Of a stretch of 36,956 nt of DNA, positions 1-9,620 are shown one piece after another (position 1 is the stretch's first letter; each line of letters starts with the position of its first letter). Location of the stretch: NCBI GenBank assembly GCA_020027965.1, contig JAHRHE010000013.1, positions 1 through 36,956 on the forward strand, in the 5' to 3' direction. A program made the position numbers and the translations under genes. The DNA is from Nitrospirota bacterium. Its GTDB lineage: Bacteria; Nitrospirota; Nitrospiria; Nitrospirales; Nitrospiraceae. Under the pieces are notes generated by a model, which was given only the letters and a program-made list of their open reading frames with translations, searched no databases and was not told the origin of the DNA.

Positions 1-37
1 GCTCCGGATTGACCTTGATTCCCTGCTTGCCTTCCAT
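1..37 (-). CDS. Possible start of a second minus-strand gene (12 codons visible)
   Basis: An ATG at 37 follows the strong ribosome-binding site AAGGAGGTGT (41-50) at ideal spacing and begins MEGKQGIKVNPE before the window ends. It overlaps copy 1 of the duplicated small gene in another frame. Only one of the two frames, or a short translationally coupled overlap, can be right. Too short to identify. Confidence 0.35.
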   Translation of the reverse strand, partial: MEGKQGIKVNPE

Positions 38-227
38 CGGACACCTCCTTCATTATTGTCGCCTCTTGAAGTGTCCGTACAACTAGGGTTAGCTCACTCT
101 GACCCCAATTTCTCTGCCAATTTCTCTGGCGAAAGTCCTTCAGCGCGTCCTCCAACACTTTCTTCATCGGCGGCTCGCTCATCGGAGCTAATCGGAACTT
201 CCCCTTCCCCTCGCTCCCGTTCGCCAT
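1..227 (-). CDS. Small protein of unknown function, copy 1, runs off the window edge
   Basis: An ATG at 227 is preceded by a good ribosome-binding site (GGAGGTGG) and opens a frame that stays open to the window edge, 75 codons. The start reads MANGSEGKGKF and continues with LAPMSEPPMKKVLEDALK. The same stretch, in the same phase, begins a second minus-strand gene at 1695. Two of the three codon differences inside the shared block are synonymous, which argues that this frame is translated. A perfect 12-bp tandem duplication (105-116 and 117-128) repeats the residues QRNW. A second start, ATG at 37 with an AAGGAGG site just upstream, lies in another frame, so the downstream part of this frame could instead be overlapped by a different gene. 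I do not recognise the family. Confidence 0.45.
   Translation of the reverse strand, partial: MANGSEGKGKFRLAPMSEPPMKKVLEDALKDFRQRNWQRNWGQSELTLVVRTLQEATIMKEVSDGRQAGNQGQSG
138..211. repeat. 74-bp direct repeat, copy 1
   Basis: Positions 138-211 match 1606-1679 at about 70 of 74 bases, in the same orientation. The two copies flank the zinc-finger/HTH gene at 399-1466. On the minus strand both encode GKGKF, one variable residue, then LAPMSEPPMKKVLEDALK. Confidence 0.85.
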
Positions 228-398
228 GGGCCACCTCCGCAAAGGTTATAGTCCCCTTCTGAGACATCTGTAAATCCCGGGCTAGGTCAGTATGACACCG
301 ATGCTGGATACGAATTCAGGACGCTTAGCAGCGCTCGGACTGCCGCCCGCCGTCCAGAGTCTTGGAAATGAATTCCCCGCATTGTAAACTCACTTACC

Positions 399-1466
399 AT
401 GGCGGCACCACGCAGGCGAATTCTCACCCGGAAGCAGTTAGCCCATTATAGACGCCACTGCCAGGAGGCCATCGGGGATGACTTCATCATCTGCCTGGAA
501 TGCGGCTCGACTTTCCGGTCGTTAGTCGCTCATCTTTGGTCCATGCACGGCATGTCAACGGACGACTACCGCGAGAAATGGGGTTACAAGCGATTAACCG
601 CGCTGATGGACCTGGAGACACGCCTTAAAGCCACTCAGGGCTTCAGGGCGCGATGGGCAACAGGATGGCGGTTTCCGGTCCGCAGAAAGGTCGAGGATGA
701 GACCATCCGGCGGCTCTTCGCCAAGGATCTGACAGTCCCGGCCATCGCCGCAAAAACAGGGCTCTCCCAACTGACTATCTATGCACGCCTCTTCAAGCTA
801 CGGTTAAGTCGGCGACGAGTACCCAATGAGGAGCTGCTCAGACTCGCTCGTCGTGGGCTGTGGGTCAGTCAGATTGCAGCGCGCACTGGGCTCGTGACCG
901 GAACGATTTACTCACGGCTAGCGCGGCTGCGCAAGGGGGGTGCCCGCATCCCCCCACCTCGGGGTCCACGACCGCGGGGAGACGTTCGAGCCGTCGAGGC
1001 AGAGCGATTTCTCGCGCTGGTCAGGAAAGGCTTAACGCCAGACGCCATGGCGGCTCGACTCGGGATTCGCCCCGCGAGCGTCAAGCATCGGCTGTGGGTG
1101 CTGCGCAAGCGCGGGTTGGTCCTCCCATCCACTCTGAGACTAGGCTCCCAGTCGATCGTGAGCGATGCTCGACTGCTGGCGCCGTGCAGGAAGGGGATCG
1201 GACCCGCGGAGATCGCCACCCGTATCGGCCTGCCCTACTCGACGGTCGTTGGGCGCGTGCACAGCCTTCGGCAGCGAGGCCTCCTCCCCAGCCCTCCCCC
1301 CCGACCCGGCCTCTCAAGAGAACGCGTGAGCGATAGTGAGCTACTCAAACTCGTCCGCGCAGGATTCGGGACGAGGCTGATCGCCGACCGGACGGGCCTC
1401 GGCATGACGACGGTCAAGAGCAGGCTGAACGCCCTGCCACAGCGAGCGGAGAGTGATCACCGCTAA
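399..1466 (+). CDS. MucR/Ros-type zinc-finger protein with five tandem HTH repeats
   Basis: A 355-residue predicted DNA-binding protein. Residues 32-50 hold a MucR/Ros-like zinc finger: C32-x2-C35, then H45 and H50, in the context CLECGSTFRSLVAHL, followed by the typical GMSTDDYREKWG. In rhizobial MucR and Agrobacterium Ros this finger binds DNA. The rest consists of five HTH-like units at about 98-136, 141-180, 198-240, 254-296 and 310-349. Each has the core IAxRTGL or a variant at residues 116, 159, 217, 272 and 328, followed by a serine/threonine-rich recognition-helix region and R-L-x-x-L-R. The repeats are diverged, not recent copies. Ros/MucR proteins are normally about 140-190 residues, so this one is far longer. 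It starts at an ATG without a clear ribosome-binding site. It probably binds an extended DNA site; the target is unknown. Confidence 0.75.
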   Translation: MAAPRRRILTRKQLAHYRRHCQEAIGDDFIICLECGSTFRSLVAHLWSMHGMSTDDYREKWGYKRLTALMDLETRLKATQGFRARWATGWRFPVRRKVEDETIRRLFAKDLTVPAIAAKTGLSQLTIYARLFKLRLSRRRVPNEELLRLARRGLWVSQIAARTGLVTGTIYSRLARLRKGGARIPPPRGPRPRGDVRAVEAERFLALVRKGLTPDAMAARLGIRPASVKHRLWVLRKRGLVLPSTLRLGSQSIVSDARLLAPCRKGIGPAEIATRIGLPYSTVVGRVHSLRQRGLLPSPPPRPGLSRERVSDSELLKLVRAGFGTRLIADRTGLGMTTVKSRLNALPQRAESDHR

Positions 1467-1569
1467 CCCCCCTGCCCCAGTTGGCTGTACATGCTCGCGA
1501 TGAACCCCGAGTTCGGGCCCGAAGTCGAGTCCACCCCACTTCCGGACGCAGTTCGGTCCCCAGGGAGTG

Positions 1570-1695
1570 TCAAGTCAAGCAATGACCCCGGCTTTGCCGG
1601 CTTTGCTTCAGCGCGTCCTCCAAGACCTTCTTCATCGGCGGCTCGCTCATCGGAGCTAACAGGAACTTCCCCTTCCCCTGGTTCTCCCTCCCCAT
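1570..1695 (-). CDS. Small 41-residue protein of unknown function, copy 2
   Basis: An ATG at 1695, preceded by GAGGTGG, starts a 41-codon frame that ends at TGA 1570-1572. The residues GKGKFLLAPMSEPPMKKVLE and the following DALK match copy 1 at 1-227 in exact register (M16 aligns with M16). The tail then diverges (QSRQSRGHCLT) and stops early, so this may be a truncated copy of a longer gene. It converges on the HTH protein gene. Family unknown. Confidence 0.45.
   Translation of the reverse strand: MGRENQGKGKFLLAPMSEPPMKKVLEDALKQSRQSRGHCLT
1606..1679. repeat. 74-bp direct repeat, copy 2
   Basis: Second copy of the segment at 138-211, same orientation, about 70 of 74 bases identical. It contains the N-terminal coding part of the 41-residue gene. 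Confidence 0.85.
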
Positions 1696-1712
1696 CGCTC
1701 CACCTCATTAAG

Positions 1713-2144
1713 TCATTGGATAAGACCCGGCCATGAGGGACCAGCTACCTCCGCAAGTTTCCTCCCGAGCCGCTCACTGATTCGGAAGGGCACGGCAGGA
1801 GAATAGCGAAACCGAAGGTCCATCGAGCGGAAGCCGAGCAGACGCTTTGTACTGATGGCGATATCATTCCACGGGATCAACAACGGTGGGTGCCCAATCC
1901 TAAACGGCCAGATGACTCCTAGGTAAAGCCCCTTCCGGTTGGCCCCCACGATCAGGCAATTGTTGTAACCCATCAGCCAGCGCATTTGCGCGCTCTGAAA
2001 CCACCAGCGCTTGCCATCAAAGAGATCTGAGTACTGATACCGCTCGGCAAGCGACGCCCACCCACTGATGCGCGATATGAGGAGTAAGGTACCGATTGAA
2101 CCACAAGCGATGGCCAGAACAATGAGTCCCAGATTTGAGTCCAT
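1713..2144 (-). CDS. Membrane-anchored protein of unknown function, possible PH-like domain
   Basis: A 143-residue protein with one N-terminal membrane segment (about residues 6-24, LGLIVLAIACGSIGTLLLI) and a soluble remainder. The pattern around residues 70-95, GLYLGVIWPFRIGHPPLLIP followed by WNDI, resembles the strand pattern of bacterial PH-like membrane proteins in which a W-x-D/E-I step follows a hydrophobic strand. That is a weak resemblance only. It lies at the distal end of the accessory minus-strand block and starts at an ATG. No function can be assigned. Confidence 0.6.
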   Translation of the reverse strand: MDSNLGLIVLAIACGSIGTLLLISRISGWASLAERYQYSDLFDGKRWWFQSAQMRWLMGYNNCLIVGANRKGLYLGVIWPFRIGHPPLLIPWNDIAISTKRLLGFRSMDLRFRYSPAVPFRISERLGRKLAEVAGPSWPGLIQ

Positions 2145-2278
2145 CGACTAAGCTCTCGAAGCAAGCGCCGTGGGAAAAGCCTACTCCCAACATTTGCTAG
2201 TACAAGGGCTTGCTCGTACTGTCGACCTTTATCACGTGAAAGCGAAACCAGGAAACGATCAGGAGTGTTTCTTCGCGG

Positions 2279-2755
2279 TCAGCGGGACCTTTTACTCTCT
2301 TCCTTCAAATGAGCCTTCCAGGGGTTCACAAGCACCTCATACTTCTCCTCGGATAACCCGCCTTTAGGAGAGGTCTTTGTAATAACCTGTCTCTTTAACT
2401 CGATACTCGTGAAGCTGTCCTGGCCTTCCCTCTGGGCGAGCTGCTTCCACCGAACGAACTCCCAGCCGTAGGCCTTCGGCAGTCTGTACGCCTGCTGATC
2501 AGGATATTCACCGAAGGTGGAGGCAGTAATGAAGAGCGTCGCCTGCGGACAAGTCTCAGGTGGCCCATCACACTCCCCGTGCTCACGCAGGCGAAGGACC
2601 CGTATCCAATACGGGGGCTTCTTGTGTTCTGCCAAGATTTCTAGGTTGTTCAGAAGATCCACCAACTGGGTGTCACTGATCTCTTTCAGCACCTCGCCCA
2701 GGACCGACCCCGCTGGCAGGAATACGAGCAAGGCAACTGCGAGAAGGCATCGCAC
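2279..2755 (-). CDS. Secreted protein of unknown function
   Basis: A 158-residue protein with a clear Sec signal peptide (CLLAVALLVFLPAGSVLGEV, cleavage near residue 20). The mature part is hydrophilic and holds two cysteines (CDGPPETC) that could form a disulfide. The GTG start at 2755 is supported by the ribosome-binding site AGAGGT five bases upstream. I do not recognise the family. It is co-directional with the neighbouring accessory genes but separated by about 100 bp on each side, so it need not be in an operon. Confidence 0.65.
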   Translation of the reverse strand: MRCLLAVALLVFLPAGSVLGEVLKEISDTQLVDLLNNLEILAEHKKPPYWIRVLRLREHGECDGPPETCPQATLFITASTFGEYPDQQAYRLPKAYGWEFVRWKQLAQREGQDSFTSIELKRQVITKTSPKGGLSEEKYEVLVNPWKAHLKEESKRSR

Positions 2756-2856
2756 AGGCTACCTCTGCGCTGATACACGAATATGTGCAGATTCCGTCGA
2801 CCGAGCCTGTAGTGAGACAACCAGAATCTCCGGCACTTTCCGGGCGCCCGAAAGCC

Positions 2857-3756
2857 TCACGTTTCCTCCATAGCTCTCCGCACGGCATCGGGAGATCGGA
2901 GTCGCTTTGCAGAGGCAACGATTCTAGACACCGATCGTTCGACTACTCGCCGTCGCGCCTTGATCCGCCGCACAATTGTCGCCAACTCCTCGTCCAACAA
3001 AGACAAGAATCTCGAGAAGTGGCGCTCGGTCACTATGTCGATCTGATACATACGAGACTTGGATCCTCGGATCACCGTTCGGCGAAACTGGAGGTGCTTA
3101 GCTGGTTTCAGAACCACGGATGTGCCTCGCGGGCGAGCCTCTAGGAGATCTCCCTGAACAACCAGGACTGGATAGTAGAACTCGAGATTAACGGACTCCT
3201 CGGGGCCAAACTTCCAGCTCTTGAAGTGTTGATCCTGCCGATAATCAACCGCGTCGCAAAGTTTCTGGAACGAGTCGAAGTGAGACCCCTCGTGGAGTGC
3301 CATCCATTGTTGGGTCTTTTTTCTTGTGAAGGAACAGAACTGCGTCGCAACGCGCGATGCACAGTAGTGGTGGAACTTGTCGAGATTAAGAGCCTCCTGA
3401 ATTGGGGTCCACCGCTCACCAGAAGCCACAAGCTAAGCGGGGAGGCCTGCGACACGCAGGTCCTCGTGGAAAAGAAACCCAACGATGGGTTTCTTGGTAA
3501 TCAAGGTTAGGGGCTCGGGATTGTTAACGCACTCGATAAGAAGCACGTTGAAGATGAAGTCTCGATCACGACTGAAACTGCGGGCTGTGATCGCGAAGAG
3601 ATCCATTTCGCGAGATTTCCCCGTCGCGGGATCCAGGTAGGCGTCGTTGGCATCAACGTAATAGCCGGCGGACAGGAGCTTCTGCTCGAGGCGACACTCG
3701 ACGAGGTATCCGGACTGGACGAGGGCCTGTTTCGCTTCTTGTAGCGTAATAGCCAT
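2857..3756 (-). pseudogene. PD-(D/E)xK nuclease-like protein interrupted by an in-frame TAG
   Basis: Two open stretches, 3433-3756 (107 codons) and 2857-3429 (190 codons), lie in the same frame and are separated only by a TAG at 3433-3435 and one CTT codon. Together they would give a protein of about 299 residues. The first part looks like a restriction-endonuclease-like fold: an N-terminal helix, then SREMDLFAI (E50, D52), then a strand LLIECVNN (E75-C-V77). In the PD-(D/E)xK fold the last position is normally lysine, so V77 is a missing catalytic residue. The second part is mostly basic and helical near its end. The gene is probably a decayed nuclease-like gene. A readthrough product, two separate proteins (GTG at 3429 could restart), or a sequencing error are the alternatives. 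Confidence 0.65.
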
Positions 3757-3904
3757 AGAGCAATGAGAAAGCCATCGGGGTCAGAGTACAATTTTAGAGG
3801 AGCGGTTCAGCACTTTTCGGCGTTCGCGGTTACTCCTCTGAGCCGCCGCCCCACTCTGCTACCAACCTCATTCTGAGCAATGAAATACTACTCCCTGCAC
3901 GTTG

Positions 3905-4405
3905 TTATATAGCTGCCTCATCAAACGCCTGCTTTACCCGAGGCGCCAAAGCTAGGCATTCTCTCAATATAGCAAGGGAACTCCTAAGGAGGCTCTCCGT
4001 CCTTTCGGTATCCTCGTGAACTTCTATATTGTGCTTGCCCCCATGAACCAAGTTGTTTCTAACGCACCTCACCATTCTCAAGAGAAACTCAACCTCTGAC
4101 TCGTTCGCAGGCCGCACTGGAGTCTCCCAGGCAACCGCACCATCGATGATGACTTGCTTCCACGGCGGGGACTCCAGGATATATTCGCATGCCCGCCGGA
4201 GGGAGTCAGTCCTGTCCAGCTTGAAGACATCGCGGAGGGACGCCGCAAAGCTATCCCAATCGGGTTCTGCGGCGGCAGGACGGCTCGGATCCGTCTGGGG
4301 GTGTCGCACGAAGAGGCCACTGGCCTTGAGTGCATACTCGAACCGCGAAAAAGTCAGGAAGAACTCGAGCAACAAGCTGCGATCGACCCTCGTCTCCACG
4401 GGCAT
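3905..4405 (-). CDS. HEPN-like domain protein, integron-cassette gene
   Basis: A 166-residue, largely helical protein. Residues 116-121, RNNLVH, give the R-x4-H motif of HEPN domains, placed in the usual R(N/D)xxxHG context (H121-G122) near the C-terminal helices. The N-terminal helix FSRFEYALKASG is also typical of this superfamily. HEPN proteins are often metal-independent RNases in toxin-antitoxin or defence systems, but many have other roles, and no partner nucleotidyltransferase (MNT) is visible next to it. The ATG at 4405 has AGGAGA upstream. It directly follows the attC-like site at 4426-4518, which makes it the next gene in the cassette array. I found no convincing attC after its own stop. 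Confidence 0.7.
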   Translation of the reverse strand: MPVETRVDRSLLLEFFLTFSRFEYALKASGLFVRHPQTDPSRPAAAEPDWDSFAASLRDVFKLDRTDSLRRACEYILESPPWKQVIIDGAVAWETPVRPANESEVEFLLRMVRCVRNNLVHGGKHNIEVHEDTERTESLLRSSLAILRECLALAPRVKQAFDEAAI

Positions 4406-4425
4406 CCCGTCGCGTCTCCTGTGGC

Positions 4426-4518
4426 CACAAACGCCTCGGGGCTGAGCGGCCGGCGAAGGACAGCCTCATAGGGCAACGCAGCCGAATTCCGCCGGGCCGC
4501 TCCATCCGCTCGTTAGAC
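4426..4518 (-). other. attC-like recombination site (cassette junction)
   Basis: Read on the minus strand it begins with GTCTAAC (4512-4518), five bases after the stop of the 4524-5081 gene. It contains the imperfect stem GAGCGGCCCGGCG / CGCCGGCCGCTC and ends with GTTTGTG (4426-4432). The starting GTCTAAC is the exact complement of the GTTAGAC at the 5' end of the same gene's cassette (5111-5117), as expected for one mobile cassette. Confidence 0.7.
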
Positions 4519-4523
4519 GACAT

Positions 4524-5081
4524 TCACATGCGCCGGAACGTGCCGATCTTCAGAATGACTGGATCGGCCTGAGTATGTCTCCCCAGTACGACATTGAGGT
4601 CCTCCATCGCCTCAACAAACTTCTGGAAACAGCTAAGCATCTTCCCCGCAGGCGGTAGGTTCTTGAGCAGCTGATCGTAGCTGACATGGATGCAAGCATT
4701 CCGCAATTCGCAAAGCTCGGCGATCGCCTGGTGGGGTCCTGCTGAGGCGCTGAGGGTTGTACTCTTGCCAGCGAGGGCGGGAAGCAAGAACCATTTGTGC
4801 TTCGTTGGCATTCGGCGCGCGGCATCCGCCACGTCCCTGCTGATGCGCCGCTCTTCGAGCAGTTCCTCTATGAGATGGTTGATACGCGCTTCGATCGCTA
4901 AGTTGCAGAGGACAAGAGTTCCGAGAATGTGGATCTGCTCATTCCCAAGTGTGCCACCCTGAGGGGTCCAGTCGTCCTGAGTCTTGCACTTCTCAGATAT
5001 CTCGAACACCCTCGTCGCCTGCTCTCTCGCAAGGAAAAAGAAGCTATTCCACACACGAACTCTCTCCTGCGCATCCGCCAC
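4524..5081 (-). CDS. HEPN-like helical protein, integron-cassette gene
   Basis: A 185-residue helical protein when started at GTG 5081. A longer reading from 5201 is open but would lie inside the upstream attC site, so the shorter start just after the site is preferred (GAAGGGAAACC precedes the GTG). Residues 127-132, RNACIH, again form R-x4-H, followed by a C-terminal helix, so this is a second HEPN-like protein next to the one at 3905-4405. The two share little sequence beyond that motif. The cassette runs from GTTAGAC at 5111 to GTCTAAC at 4518. An RNase or toxin role is possible but unproven. Confidence 0.65.
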   Translation of the reverse strand: MADAQERVRVWNSFFFLAREQATRVFEISEKCKTQDDWTPQGGTLGNEQIHILGTLVLCNLAIEARINHLIEELLEERRISRDVADAARRMPTKHKWFLLPALAGKSTTLSASAGPHQAIAELCELRNACIHVSYDQLLKNLPPAGKMLSCFQKFVEAMEDLNVVLGRHTQADPVILKIGTFRRM

Positions 5082-5110
5082 TTCGGTTTCCCTTCCCCCA
5101 CTTCCTTGTC

Positions 5111-5260
5111 GTCTAACTATTGAGTATGCTGGGCGGCATATCCCGACCCCGGAGGGTGCAAACGACTGGCCGATTCTCTTCTGATTCCGAGGCCCTGTCA
5201 ACGACCTCCACAGCTCACGGTTGGCGTCAAAGATCGATCAGCATAATCCCAGTCTTATGC
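5111..5260 (-). other. attC-like recombination site, long form
   Basis: On the minus strand it runs from GCATAAG (5254-5260), shortly after the stop of the 183-residue gene, to GTTAGAC (5111-5117), just before the next gene. The arms TATGCTG (5239-5245) and CAGCATA (5125-5131) pair perfectly. GCATAAG is the complement, with one mismatch, of the GTTATGC that opens the same cassette. Its length of about 150 bp is like the long VCR-type sites. Confidence 0.65.
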
Positions 5261-5272
5261 GTCACCACAATG

Positions 5273-5824
5273 TCACTCGCTCGGCAGTTCGGCTGAAAGA
5301 CTGCCACAGGTTATACCGAGAGCCTTTGCAGCAAGCTCCCACGATTTGTGGCGTCCCCTGGTTTGCTTTGCGGGGCCTTCCACATAGCGGCTCCGCGCTC
5401 GATCGAGAGTGTACGTTTGCACCTCGTACCGGTGTGGTGCGTAGTGCGATTCGCCAGGATGGCCCTCCCAAAGATGTCGGATTACCTGCACTTGCGCTCC
5501 AGGTTCGATTCCCGCACACACAGCGTCCTGTGTTGAAGTCTCAATCGGCTTGCTCAGCAAGGTTTTGAGACCGTTTGTCTCAACGCTCAAGGGAATCCAC
5601 CAGAAGTGAATATCCGAGCCGCCGGGTTCGATCTGTACTAGCCAAGGCGCACTTGAGTTTCCCCTCAGGACGTGGAGTGAAAACGGACCACCGTAGGCTG
5701 GTAGAGTAATCTCCAGAGGGCGAGCGTTTGGACTTCGGCACGACACCATGACGAAATCGCCGTCTCCGCCCGGTACTTGCGCGCACGTGACGGCTATCAA
5801 TACGGCGGCTGCTCCGCTGGGCAT
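5273..5824 (-). CDS. Cassette-borne protein of unknown function
   Basis: A 183-residue protein that starts at ATG 5824, 17 bases after the core GTTATGC of the upstream attC site, with GGTGGGG as a likely ribosome-binding site. The N-terminus (MPSGAAAVLIAVTCAQVPGG) is weakly hydrophobic and could be a short signal peptide. The rest is predicted mostly beta, with paired cysteines. Cassette genes often encode unknown proteins of this size. No family recognised. Confidence 0.6.
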   Translation of the reverse strand: MPSGAAAVLIAVTCAQVPGGDGDFVMVSCRSPNARPLEITLPAYGGPFSLHVLRGNSSAPWLVQIEPGGSDIHFWWIPLSVETNGLKTLLSKPIETSTQDAVCAGIEPGAQVQVIRHLWEGHPGESHYAPHRYEVQTYTLDRARSRYVEGPAKQTRGRHKSWELAAKALGITCGSLSAELPSE

Positions 5825-5840
5825 TTCCCCACCAAGCGAC

Positions 5841-5906
5841 GCATAACAATCATGTTAAGGGGCGCAGCGGCTTATTACCGCGTCCCTCTCGAGCGGCTTG
5901 TTATGC
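5841..5906 (-). other. attC site (59-base element), the clearest one
   Basis: This 66-bp element on the minus strand has the ends GCATAACAA and TTGTTATGC, a perfect 9-bp inverted pair. Next to the first end is AAGCCGCTC, and the inner imperfect stem is GGGACGCGG against CCGCTGCGCCCC. This is the layout of integron attC sites: R'' core ending AAC, L'', an inner stem, L', and R' core beginning GTT. It separates two cassette-like genes with 7 and 16 bases to spare. Confidence 0.85.
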
Positions 5907-5913
5907 TTTGAGG

Positions 5914-6411
5914 TTATTTCGATAATTTCTCACTCTCTTTTTCAATCTCTTCCGGCCAGAACGGGACCACATCAACAATCTTCCACTTGTTGTTGATACT
6001 ACGCAATAAGTAAGCTCCCTTTTCCCATAACGATATAATGCACTTGGAGTTTTTCTCTCTTAACTTTTCATTGACCTTCAAGATAACATAAGCCTCGATG
6101 TCACCCGGTTTGGACTCAGAAATATACTGGCCTCTATTAAGAACCACCCGAAATTTCGTAACATCAAATCCCTCTATTTCCGGAGATGGGCAATCGATTT
6201 TCTGGATAGGGTTAAATTCTGGAAGGGAAGCATTTGGGGCAAGTACTTCATCGAGCAGGTTATCATCGCCTATTTTGAAAGCTTTCACAAAGAGGGCAAG
6301 TGTTTTGTCAGGAGTTGAGAAGTCAAGCGTATCCGAGGCAGGAGCATTCAAAGGCACACAGAAATTGAAAATGAGGACAAACAGAGGGGTAAGGCTTCCA
6401 AACTTTCCCAT
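5914..6411 (-). CDS. Secreted AT-rich cassette protein of unknown function
   Basis: A 165-residue protein from ATG 6411. An upstream frame is open to 6525, but that part coincides with the attC-like stem region, and the shorter start begins with a signal peptide (FGSLTPLFVLIFNFC, then NAPASD). The mature part (STPDKTLALFVKAFKIGDDN) resembles small NTF2-like/DUF4878-type secreted proteins, which often begin with SPEKAVEAFLKAL-like helices and fold as a cone. That is a weak analogy. Base composition is clearly more AT-rich than the neighbours, in keeping with an acquired cassette. Ends seven bases before the attC at 5841-5906. Confidence 0.65.
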   Translation of the reverse strand: MGKFGSLTPLFVLIFNFCVPLNAPASDTLDFSTPDKTLALFVKAFKIGDDNLLDEVLAPNASLPEFNPIQKIDCPSPEIEGFDVTKFRVVLNRGQYISESKPGDIEAYVILKVNEKLREKNSKCIISLWEKGAYLLRSINNKWKIVDVVPFWPEEIEKESEKLSK

Positions 6412-6413
6412 CT

Positions 6414-6550
6414 TTCTAACGGTGTTACGCGGTAAATGTCCGATTTCTTTGAGCATATCGTTTAGCTTCAAGGGGTCGGGAGTCATCGTTCGCGACATGC
6501 GCCCGTTCAGTGCCCGAGTCGTCAATAAAAGACTCCCGACACCGTTCTTC
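6414..6550 (-). other. Probable attC-like site, long form
   Basis: On the minus strand GAAGAAC (6544-6550) and GTTAGAA (6414-6420) enclose nested stems: AACGGTGT/ACACCGTT (8 bp) and GTCGGGAGTC/GACTCCCGAC (10 bp; 6475-6484 and 6531-6540). It lies between the stop of the 340-residue gene and the start of the secreted protein, with the next ATG two bases after GTTAGAA. The cores deviate from consensus more than at the other sites. Confidence 0.5.
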
Positions 6551-6562
6551 GACCGACATTTG

Positions 6563-7585
6563 TCATGGGCCTTCGTATCTTGTACTGATCAAACCGAAGG
6601 AATCTCCCTCTGTCCCACCTCGCCAATAGGCGATCCCTTGTTGGCCACCTTCATAGTTCCATAGATCTGCCCAGATCTCATCTAGCCCGTCACCATTAAT
6701 GTCTCCAACCGATATGGGCTTAACCTGTGGATACACTCCCTCACCGCGAACCACTGTAATCAGTGATAAGCGGTCATCGAGGATCACGGTCCGCCAACTG
6801 CGGAGTCTCTCTTCGCCCTCACTGTACGCCGCCGAATCAGGGTACCGATGATAGAAGACCACATACTGAATTTCATCGGGCTTGGTAAAGTGGCCTTGCA
6901 AAACCACGAACTTCTCAGCCAGTTTCTTCTTCGGGTCTAGACCCTTCCGCATTATTTTGCGTATCCGCCCAAGCGTTGCAGCAGCCGGCGATGCGTTCGT
7001 ATTATTGCAGGAGTGCCGGTAGGCTCGAAGGTCTGCTCTAGCGACTAGTAAAGTGGTATCAGGAATCTTACCTTCCGACATGGGCTTGAGAATGGCGAGA
7101 AGCAGGTGGCTTCCGTCTGCTTCACTGTGGTGAATCTCGTACCCTGTTACCCTAGCTCCAACCAATCCACGTGGAGACCGAACCTTGACGACAGTACCGA
7201 CCTGTAGGCTAGCCGAATCTGCCACGTATTGGGAATCGACTACGTGGTAAACCTGATCTCCCAAGTATGGAGTTGGGCCCTTGCCTGAGAAATCAGGGCC
7301 TCCCACCACCCTCTTGAAAAACGCTTCCCAAACTGCCCAACGCTCATCTGTGGTCTGAGCCTTCGCAAACAAGGACGGCTTCAAAGAAATCTCCAAATAG
7401 ATCGTGCCACCAACTGCCCCACCAATAAGGAGATCCTCAAAGAATTGGTCGGCGGAACTTGTCGGACCCGCATGAATTGCGGGCGGGTGTCCCACGAAAG
7501 TGACAAGAACTACGCCGACCCAAAATGCCAGGAGGGTAATTCGTGCTACCGCCAATGCACCATGCTGTTTGTCAATTATGATCAC
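6563..7585 (-). CDS. Exported protein with a C-terminal FG-GAP/EF-hand-like calcium motif
   Basis: A 340-residue protein with an uncleaved or cleaved N-terminal membrane segment (about residues 13-33, ending near AIHAGPTSS). A middle region of unknown fold follows. Near the C-terminus is VGDINGDGLDEIW (residues 293-305), the D-x-N-x-D-G-x-D calcium-binding pattern found in FG-GAP/VCBS repeats. Only one repeat is seen, so it is not a full beta-propeller. The C-terminal 100 residues may bind calcium outside the cytoplasm. It starts at GTG 7585, and the stop is followed by an attC-like site, which may make it the first cassette of the array. No specific function. Confidence 0.6.
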   Translation of the reverse strand: MIIIDKQHGALAVARITLLAFWVGVVLVTFVGHPPAIHAGPTSSADQFFEDLLIGGAVGGTIYLEISLKPSLFAKAQTTDERWAVWEAFFKRVVGGPDFSGKGPTPYLGDQVYHVVDSQYVADSASLQVGTVVKVRSPRGLVGARVTGYEIHHSEADGSHLLLAILKPMSEGKIPDTTLLVARADLRAYRHSCNNTNASPAAATLGRIRKIMRKGLDPKKKLAEKFVVLQGHFTKPDEIQYVVFYHRYPDSAAYSEGEERLRSWRTVILDDRLSLITVVRGEGVYPQVKPISVGDINGDGLDEIWADLWNYEGGQQGIAYWRGGTEGDSFGLISTRYEGP

Positions 7586-8088
7586 TTTGTTCTTATCTCA
7601 GCGGCCCACCAGCGGGTCTCCGGTAAGGTGAGATGGCCGCGCTGCCTACTATCGGTGACAAAAACGCTTGCCAGACGACAACCATTAGTTCCATTGGGGA
7701 AGCGGCGTGAGTGACATTGCGGGCTCGCCGTGCTGATGTGCGCCCCCCGCTCACACCTGCCCTGCCCCTCAAGGGGAGATGGTTGAATCCTTCAAAGGCG
7801 AGAGGGCCATCGGCGCCGTCTCGCCTACCCCACCCCCCTTCTGGTGTTAGAAGCGCAATCTGCAAGCGTCGGGGTGGTCGCGGGAGCGGCATTGCGGGCG
7901 AGCCATGCTGGTGTGCGTGCCGGCAGAACGTGCGAGGCCCGGCCGCACGCGCCTGCAGAAACCAGGCGAGTGCGGATCGGAGAACCCCCACTCTGTGGGG
8001 GATGGGGGGCGCCGCAGCCGTTCTGCCGGTAGCTACAGCAGCTAGGCGAGCACGCACCAAAGCGACGCGAGTACCCCGACGCACCTCC
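7586..8088. other. Non-coding gap with imperfect direct repeats
   Basis: This 503-bp stretch separates the accessory block from rtcB. Frames open on both strands but have the Arg/Pro/Ala-rich content of chance GC-rich translation, and I support none of them. It holds an imperfect direct repeat (7715-7742 and 7890-7917, 24 of 28 bases) centred on GCGGGC...GCTG.TGTGCG, and a hairpin-prone CCCCTCAAGGGGAGATGG segment at about 7767. It looks like repeat-rich spacer or a decayed element. Confidence 0.5.
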
Positions 8089-9540
8089 TCATCCTTTAAT
8101 GTTTCCGATCGGTCTTAGCTCTGCCACCTTCTTCGTAATCCCCGCCCGATCCACCGCCTCCACGACATCCGAAATGTTCTTATACGCGAAGCCGGCCTCC
8201 TCGGCCAACCCGGACATGGACACCGCTTTGACGATGATCCCGCGCTTCTGCATGTCCTTCTGAAGCTGCTCCCCGCGCACCGACCGCTTGGCCTGAGCGC
8301 GCGACATCGTCCGGCCCGATCCATGCATCGTCGAGCCGAACGTTTCCTCCATCGCTTGATGCGTCCCGACCAGGAGATAGGACCCGGTCTCCATCGAGCC
8401 ACCACAGATGACCGGCTGGCCGATCTTCCGGAAGCGCTCCGGCAACTCTGGCTGCCCGGGCCCGAACGCCCGCGTCGCGCCTTTTCGATGCACCACCAAC
8501 TCCCCTTCTTTGTACCGTTCTACCTTGGCGATGTTGTGCGCCACGTCGTAGACGATCTCCATGCCCAGCTCTTCGGCTGACGTGCCCAACACTGTGCTGA
8601 AGGCTTCACGGATCTGATGCGTGATGACCTGCCGGTTGGCAAAAGCCGAATTGGCCGCGCAGTTCATCGCGGCAAAGTAATCCTGACCCTCCGGAGACCG
8701 GAACGGGGCGCAGGCGAGTTGCTGATCCTTCACCGTGATCCCGTACCGCCGCATGGCCTTCTCGAACACCTGCAAATAATCACTTGCCACCTGGTGGCCG
8801 AACCCCCGCGACCCGCAGTGGACCATCACGACGATCTGATCATGGCCGGTAATCCCCAGCGCAGCCGCAGTCTCGCGGTCAAAGATCCGGTCGTTGGAGG
8901 CCACCTGTACTTCGAGGTAGTGATTACCCGACCCCAGCGTCCCAAGCTGATTGATACCCCGCGTCACCGCATGGTCGCTGATCTTCGAAGGATCCGCGCC
9001 CGGAAGACAGCCACGCTCCTCGATCCGCTCCAAGTCTTCATGCCAGCCATACCCGCGCTCGATGCACCAGCGCGCACCCTTCCGCATGACCTCTTCGAAC
9101 TCCTGCCGGTTCAATCGGACAAAACCTCTAGAGCCCACGCCTGCCGGCACGCGACGGAACAACTCAGTCATGAGCTGATCCAGCTTAGGCTGCACATCTT
9201 CGCGTACAAGATTCGTACGTATTAACCTCATCCCACAATTTATGTCAAACCCGATCCCGCCGGGAGAGATGACGCCACTCTCAAGGTCCATAGCGGCCAC
9301 GCCCCCGATCGGGAAGCCGTAGCCCCAGTGACCATCCGGCATGCAAAGTGCGTAGCGCCGGATGCCGGGCAAGCAGGCCACGTTCGTCACCTGTTCGAAG
9401 ACCCCGCTATCCATGCTGGTCAGGATCTGTTCGGTCGCGTAGATACGGGCCGGAACCAGCATGCCGTCTTTCGCCGAAGGCGGAATCTCCCAGATCTCGT
9501 CTGTGACCCGGTTGACCGGCATCTGTGTCTGAAGTTTCAT
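8089..9540 (-). CDS. rtcB: RtcB-type RNA ligase
   Basis: A 483-residue protein of the RtcB family, GTP- and Mn-dependent ligases that join 2',3'-cyclic phosphate (3'-phosphate) ends to 5'-OH ends in RNA repair or tRNA splicing. Family motifs seen in order: CMPDGHWGYGFPIGGVAA, SPGGIGFDINCGMRL with the metal-binding Asp and Cys, GSGNHYLEVQ, VHCGSRGFGHQ, and the guanylylation region MHGSGRTMSRAQAKR, where the histidine at about residue 406 is the likely GMP-accepting residue. The ATG at 9540 with AGGGAG upstream is preferred to a GTG three codons earlier. It is followed by its usual activator, archease, encoded directly upstream in the same transcription unit. Confidence 0.95.
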   Translation of the reverse strand: MKLQTQMPVNRVTDEIWEIPPSAKDGMLVPARIYATEQILTSMDSGVFEQVTNVACLPGIRRYALCMPDGHWGYGFPIGGVAAMDLESGVISPGGIGFDINCGMRLIRTNLVREDVQPKLDQLMTELFRRVPAGVGSRGFVRLNRQEFEEVMRKGARWCIERGYGWHEDLERIEERGCLPGADPSKISDHAVTRGINQLGTLGSGNHYLEVQVASNDRIFDRETAAALGITGHDQIVVMVHCGSRGFGHQVASDYLQVFEKAMRRYGITVKDQQLACAPFRSPEGQDYFAAMNCAANSAFANRQVITHQIREAFSTVLGTSAEELGMEIVYDVAHNIAKVERYKEGELVVHRKGATRAFGPGQPELPERFRKIGQPVICGGSMETGSYLLVGTHQAMEETFGSTMHGSGRTMSRAQAKRSVRGEQLQKDMQKRGIIVKAVSMSGLAEEAGFAYKNISDVVEAVDRAGITKKVAELRPIGNIKG

Positions 9541-9620
9541 CGGCCACACTCCCTGGGCAAGCTCTTCAGCCAGGACTGGCCCTCAGCTATTGGCGATCAG
9601 CTATTAGCTATTCGCTAGAT
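9541..9620. repeat. Heptad-repeat array at the end of the archease gene
   Basis: On the minus strand, starting at the TAG stop of the archease gene (9615-9617), the sequence runs through 7-bp units of the type AATAGCT (TAGCGAATAGCTAATAGCTG). It continues toward rtcB. The units contain stop triplets in several frames. Confidence 0.65.

Follow-up and report, generated by a model that had tools for sequence, protein, structure and literature searches.

The window, that is, the whole stretch of 36,956 nucleotides analyzed here, starts where its contig starts. Near this end lies an intact, ATG-initiated open reading frame (ORF), positioned in the vicinity of rtcB as follows.

138-237, read on the minus strand: direct repeat copy 1, a 5' fragment of a conserved small gene of about 83 aa
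399-1466, plus strand: the whole ORF, without internal stop, product of 355 aa, pI 11.7, net charge +45
1606-1706: direct repeat copy 2, a 5' fragment of the same small gene, 87% identical to copy 1
8089-9549, minus strand: rtcB (Pfam; synteny), a conserved anchor beside the putative insertion hotspot

The gene at 399-1466 encodes a zinc finger followed by an array of helix-turn-helix (HTH) units, and is bracketed by two 101-bp copies of the 5' part of the broken small gene. In four relatives (L228-L231), the small gene is intact (about 83-89 aa) and lies to the same side of rtcB, at distances of about 46 bp, 1.3, 1.7 and 2.1 kb from it. The corresponding gap here is 6.4 kb and contains ORFs without Pfam matches, the small gene being broken into two 5' fragments. 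By sequence comparison, the stretch beside rtcB (within 1-8088 of the window) is an apparent variable insertion site, or insertion hotspot. The broken copies end in perfect short tandem duplications at or near the break (105-128, 12 bp twice; 1588-1606, 9 bp twice). The motif GGGGTCA, suspected to mark an element end where the small genes are broken, was not conspicuous there and was dropped.

Architecture and predicted fold of the protein

The features of the 355-aa protein, all encoded on the plus strand, are as follows.

456-605: Ros/MucR-type zinc finger, aa 20-69 (Pfam; PDB 2jsp; model; Foldseek)
690-815: HTH unit 1, aa 98-139 (repeat alignment; model helices 94-108, 113-120, 124-133)
819-944: HTH unit 2, aa 141-182 (repeat alignment; model helices 143-151, 156-163, 167-179)
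945-992: linker RIPPPRGPRPRGDVRA, Pro/Arg-rich, candidate minor-groove type by inferred DNA contact
993-1118: HTH unit 3, aa 199-240 (repeat alignment; model helices 196-209, 214-221, 225-237)
1158-1283: HTH unit 4, aa 254-295 (repeat alignment; model helices 256-264, 269-276, 280-292)
1284-1325: linker LPSPPPRPGLSRER, Pro/Arg-rich by composition
1326-1451: HTH unit 5, aa 310-351 (repeat alignment; model helices 312-320, 325-332, 336-353)

Residues 20-69 match the Pfam family ROS_MUCR with 52.1 bits (cut-off 25.4; E 8e-14), and phmmer matches them to Ros of A. tumefaciens (PDB 2jsp; E 8.5e-10). The predicted zinc ligands C32, C35, H45 and H50 show the spacing C-X2-C-X9-H-X4-H characteristic of the Ros/MucR class, as do the Ros ligands C79/C82/H92/H97 (PMC9779718). 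The Ros-type bbbaa fold is present in the model of the finger at a pLDDT of 92-95, and Foldseek superimposes the modeled finger onto Ros 2jsp at 1.7 A over 52 columns with a probability of 1.00. Only about 20 residues lie ahead of the finger, and in the upstream direction the frame closes at 9 codons from the ATG. In Ros/MucR proteins, the finger domain is preceded by an N-terminal oligomerization domain of about 55 residues, which is absent from the 355-aa protein.

The array behind the finger consists of five diverged repeats of 42 aa, each pair of which has 11-19 residues in common. Pair scores between units (BLOSUM62) average 57, whereas shuffled units give -34 (sd 4). In a self-comparison, the top diagonal scores 86, and none of 300 shuffles exceeds 45. 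The first-pass annotation had proposed a zinc finger and five HTH units with a common IAxRTGL core in one protein. The core was read correctly, and Pfam, the repeat statistics and AlphaFold2 agree on this architecture, with the repeats found by repeat detection far above shuffled controls. Columns V1, A20, G24, R33 and L37 of the unit are invariant. Between units, DNA identity is just 37-53%, indicating that the repeats are old and their duplication not recent. Adjacent units score highest on average (71, 63, 74 and 72; non-adjacent units 30-64), and only 2 of the 60 possible unit orders fit the similarities as well. Because neighboring units are the most alike, the sequences suggest that the repeats arose through stepwise tandem duplication.

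At the exposed positions of the third, or recognition, helix, the five units carry on average 4.6 different residues, compared to 2.5 at other positions; since the surface columns were picked after viewing the alignment, a concentration of variation on the exposed side of the DNA-reading helix is suggestive only. The recognition-helix comparison proposed at the outset, made here within the protein, reveals diverged surfaces.

In an AlphaFold2 prediction without alignment, each unit forms three helices (mean pLDDT 60.5, pTM 0.28). With 28 phage fingers aligned, the mean pLDDT is 81.8 and the pTM 0.34; the units mostly reach 85-93 in this model, whose array part is informed by no homologue because the aligned rows span the finger only. 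As the pTM is low despite locally confident units, the models predict five separate three-helix HTH units without a fixed mutual arrangement. A single merged domain, named beforehand as the outcome that would count against separate HTHs, was not seen in these predictions.

Foldseek searches with the alignment-free model returned generic HTH matches only from the PDB and, among viral structures at E < 0.001, phage proteins with low TM-scores that include a D5 protein and annotated endonucleases. Tc3 transposase and the paired domain, both known as bipartite HTH proteins with minor-groove linkers, are among the weak Foldseek matches. A resemblance of linkers RIPPPRGPRPRGDVRA and LPSPPPRPGLSRER to the minor-groove linkers of these proteins is a lead only, given that the Foldseek E-values are not significant.

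Distribution and phage counterparts

We found no other ROS_MUCR match in 236 genomes of the order or in a sample of 396 genomes from the phylum, no full-length orthologue in the same genome or in 61 relatives, and no homologue of the array in 147 genomes of the same family or, searching with the array alone, in two other phyla (345 and 378 genomes). Phages, plasmids and viral contigs, at the sensitivities used, and contigs of a species-genome collection, among the matches listed, yielded only finger-only or generic HTH matches. The protein is a singleton so far, without a full-length homologue in the genomes and collections searched. Several candidate relatives were rejected. L191, a DnaG-like ORF, and L192 are chance matches; in Sinorhizobium matches over aa 22-125, the alignment passes the stop of a short MucR gene; and the similarity of Gordonia phage Finkle gp29 to the 355-aa protein is confined to the finger and a generic HTH.

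A relaxed finger pattern identified 58 loci in viral contigs (IMG/VR). In phages, the Ros-type finger, scoring above the Pfam cut-off, fronts varied DNA-binding modules in variable number.

L133, L166, L179: finger and HNH-associated repeats (HNH_repeat; Pfam)
L138: finger, helicase-associated (HA) domains and HTH (Pfam)
L167, L169: finger and single HTH (Pfam)
L014: finger and single HTH, weakly supported (Pfam)
L144: finger and D5-like HTH stretches (PHROG)
L129: finger and roughly three HTH-like segments (by eye; profile support weak)
SPO1L5: finger and nuclease-like C terminus (domain by reading)

According to the first-pass annotation, the normal setting of a Ros/MucR finger is a short regulator with a single domain. 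This is true of alphaproteobacterial MucR, but not of these multi-module phage proteins with the same finger. It had also anticipated homologues with varying numbers of units, and here the searches produced architectural relatives with one to three HTHs but no orthologue. The finger halves of two IMG/VR phage proteins, L144 and L235, are 82% identical, and L235 ends where the array of L144 starts. Beyond this end point, L144 carries about 230 aa of HTH units and a homing-type C terminus. In a tree of about 61 finger columns from a biased sample, the finger of the 355-aa protein falls within a clade of 43 leaves, mostly phage-type fingers, apart from alphaproteobacterial MucRs (support 0.85). 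From this placement and the finger-module architectures of phages, a phage-style finger-plus-array protein appears to be a better description than MucR. We propose a phage class defined by a Ros-type finger followed by at least two small DNA-binding modules, an arrangement that the 355-aa protein has.

Other combinations of the finger were also observed. L027 and L049 (Syntrophobacteraceae) each encode two tandem Ros-type fingers in one protein, and the genome behind L049 has 13 finger matches. In the viral contigs of L130, L165, L170 and L025, a Ros-type finger is fused, by reading, to an AAA/MoxR-like ATPase.

Proposed function and comparison with known systems

The net charge of +45, the five HTH units and the Ros-type finger argue for DNA binding by the predicted protein. 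We consider it somewhat more probable than all other readings that it is a modular DNA-binding protein of phage or mobile-element type, without an enzymatic domain, which would bind a long composite site sequence-specifically. It would combine the finger with five three-helix HTH units, independent of one another and joined by flexible linkers that are often rich in Pro and Arg, and may bind a single long composite site asymmetrically, with successive major grooves occupied by the individual recognition helices and the finger contributing an end contact on DNA. For the element carrying it, such a protein could be a site-specific repressor or activator, or serve as an anchoring factor. The multi-unit reading of a predicted long site is plausible.

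We rank this reading above three others. The protein could instead be a low-specificity coating or architectural protein which, through many weak HTH contacts, would silence inserted DNA, similar to T5 D5 and functionally to MucR and H-NS. This has perhaps a one-in-four standing. The pI of 11.7 is in keeping with it, as are the tandem HTH-like segments of T5 D5, a fingerless protein annotated as a DNA-binding protein that takes part in shutoff and on which replication and late transcription depend, and the H-NS-like silencing role of Ros/MucR proteins (PMC9779718). By contrast, recognition-helix surfaces differ strongly among the units, as would not be expected if equivalent units made up a coating protein, and the N-terminal region through which MucR oligomerizes is missing.

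We regard it as unlikely that the protein is a remnant, the targeting half, of a homing-endonuclease-like protein or a nuclease, with a cutting domain lost or never present, and possibly a repressor now. Fingers joined to HNH-associated repeats (L133, L166, L179) or, by reading, to the nuclease-like C terminus of SPO1L5 would fit such an origin, as would the position of a single gene between 101-bp repeats in a hotspot. However, no nuclease domain (HNH, GIY-YIG, LAGLIDADG or Vsr-like) is among the Pfam matches listed for the ORF, the NCBIfam matches listed comprise only HTH parts of transposases and regulators, and the ORF stops directly after unit 5, leaving an interval (1467-1605) too short for a nuclease. 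Least probable, at slightly under one chance in ten, is a recently acquired gene that is non-functional or unexpressed: it is a singleton in an accessory region at the contig start, among ORFs without Pfam matches, and neither a promoter-like match nor a good Shine-Dalgarno sequence was found upstream, yet the frame of 355 aa is intact and the structural core has been kept although the old repeats diverged.

The majority of bacterial HTH regulators achieve specificity by dimerizing on short palindromes. Five different HTHs and a finger on one chain could recognize a site that is long and asymmetric. Extending the long-composite-site reading, Ros-finger HTH arrays might constitute a prokaryotic modular DNA-reading system analogous to TALE and C2H2 arrays, each unit reading a small number of bases with the recognition helix it carries, tandem duplication adding units and their number setting the length of the site; we offer this generalization as a long shot.

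The 355-aa protein resembles Ros/MucR (PF05443; Ros 2jsp) in finger sequence, zinc-ligand spacing and predicted fold, but differs in lacking both the N-terminal oligomerization domain and a YPMVAPNY-type tail, and in adding five C-terminal HTH units. H-NS-like bridging of AT-rich DNA is a further trait of the Ros/MucR class. With the phage finger proteins (L129, L133, L138, L144, L166, L167, L169, L179 and L014) it shares a Ros-type finger ahead of small modules, whereas their modules are one to three HTHs, HNH-associated repeats or HA domains and are not orthologous to the five units. T5 D5-like proteins (PHROG 323) likewise have tandem HTH-like units in a single protein, but no finger. No full-length match to PHROG 323 was obtained, the similarity being limited to HTH stretches (at best 103-198 of 319), and this family is not diagnostic, as it also matches unrelated HTH proteins in 11 of 14 control genomes.

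TnsD, the target selector of Tn7, combines a zinc finger with several HTH domains arrayed at the C terminus (PMC10293859). It is similar in this respect but is built on a TniQ core, while aa 20-69 here are ROS_MUCR; TniQ was not among the best 25 of 37 Pfam families for the ORF, and none of the ten neighbors scanned is a Tn7 gene. To the extent of an incomplete literature search, we found no description of a Ros finger joined to HTH units in tandem or of a phage class with a finger and interchangeable modules. Within that search, the earlier statement that no such family is described stands for the Ros finger with an HTH array; tandem HTH arrays are known elsewhere. Ros fingers and tandem HTH arrays, as in T5 D5 and the C termini of TnsD (PMC10293859), are each known already, and their combination appears to be new within the literature searched. 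In the phage set, the same finger serves as a cap before interchangeable modules.
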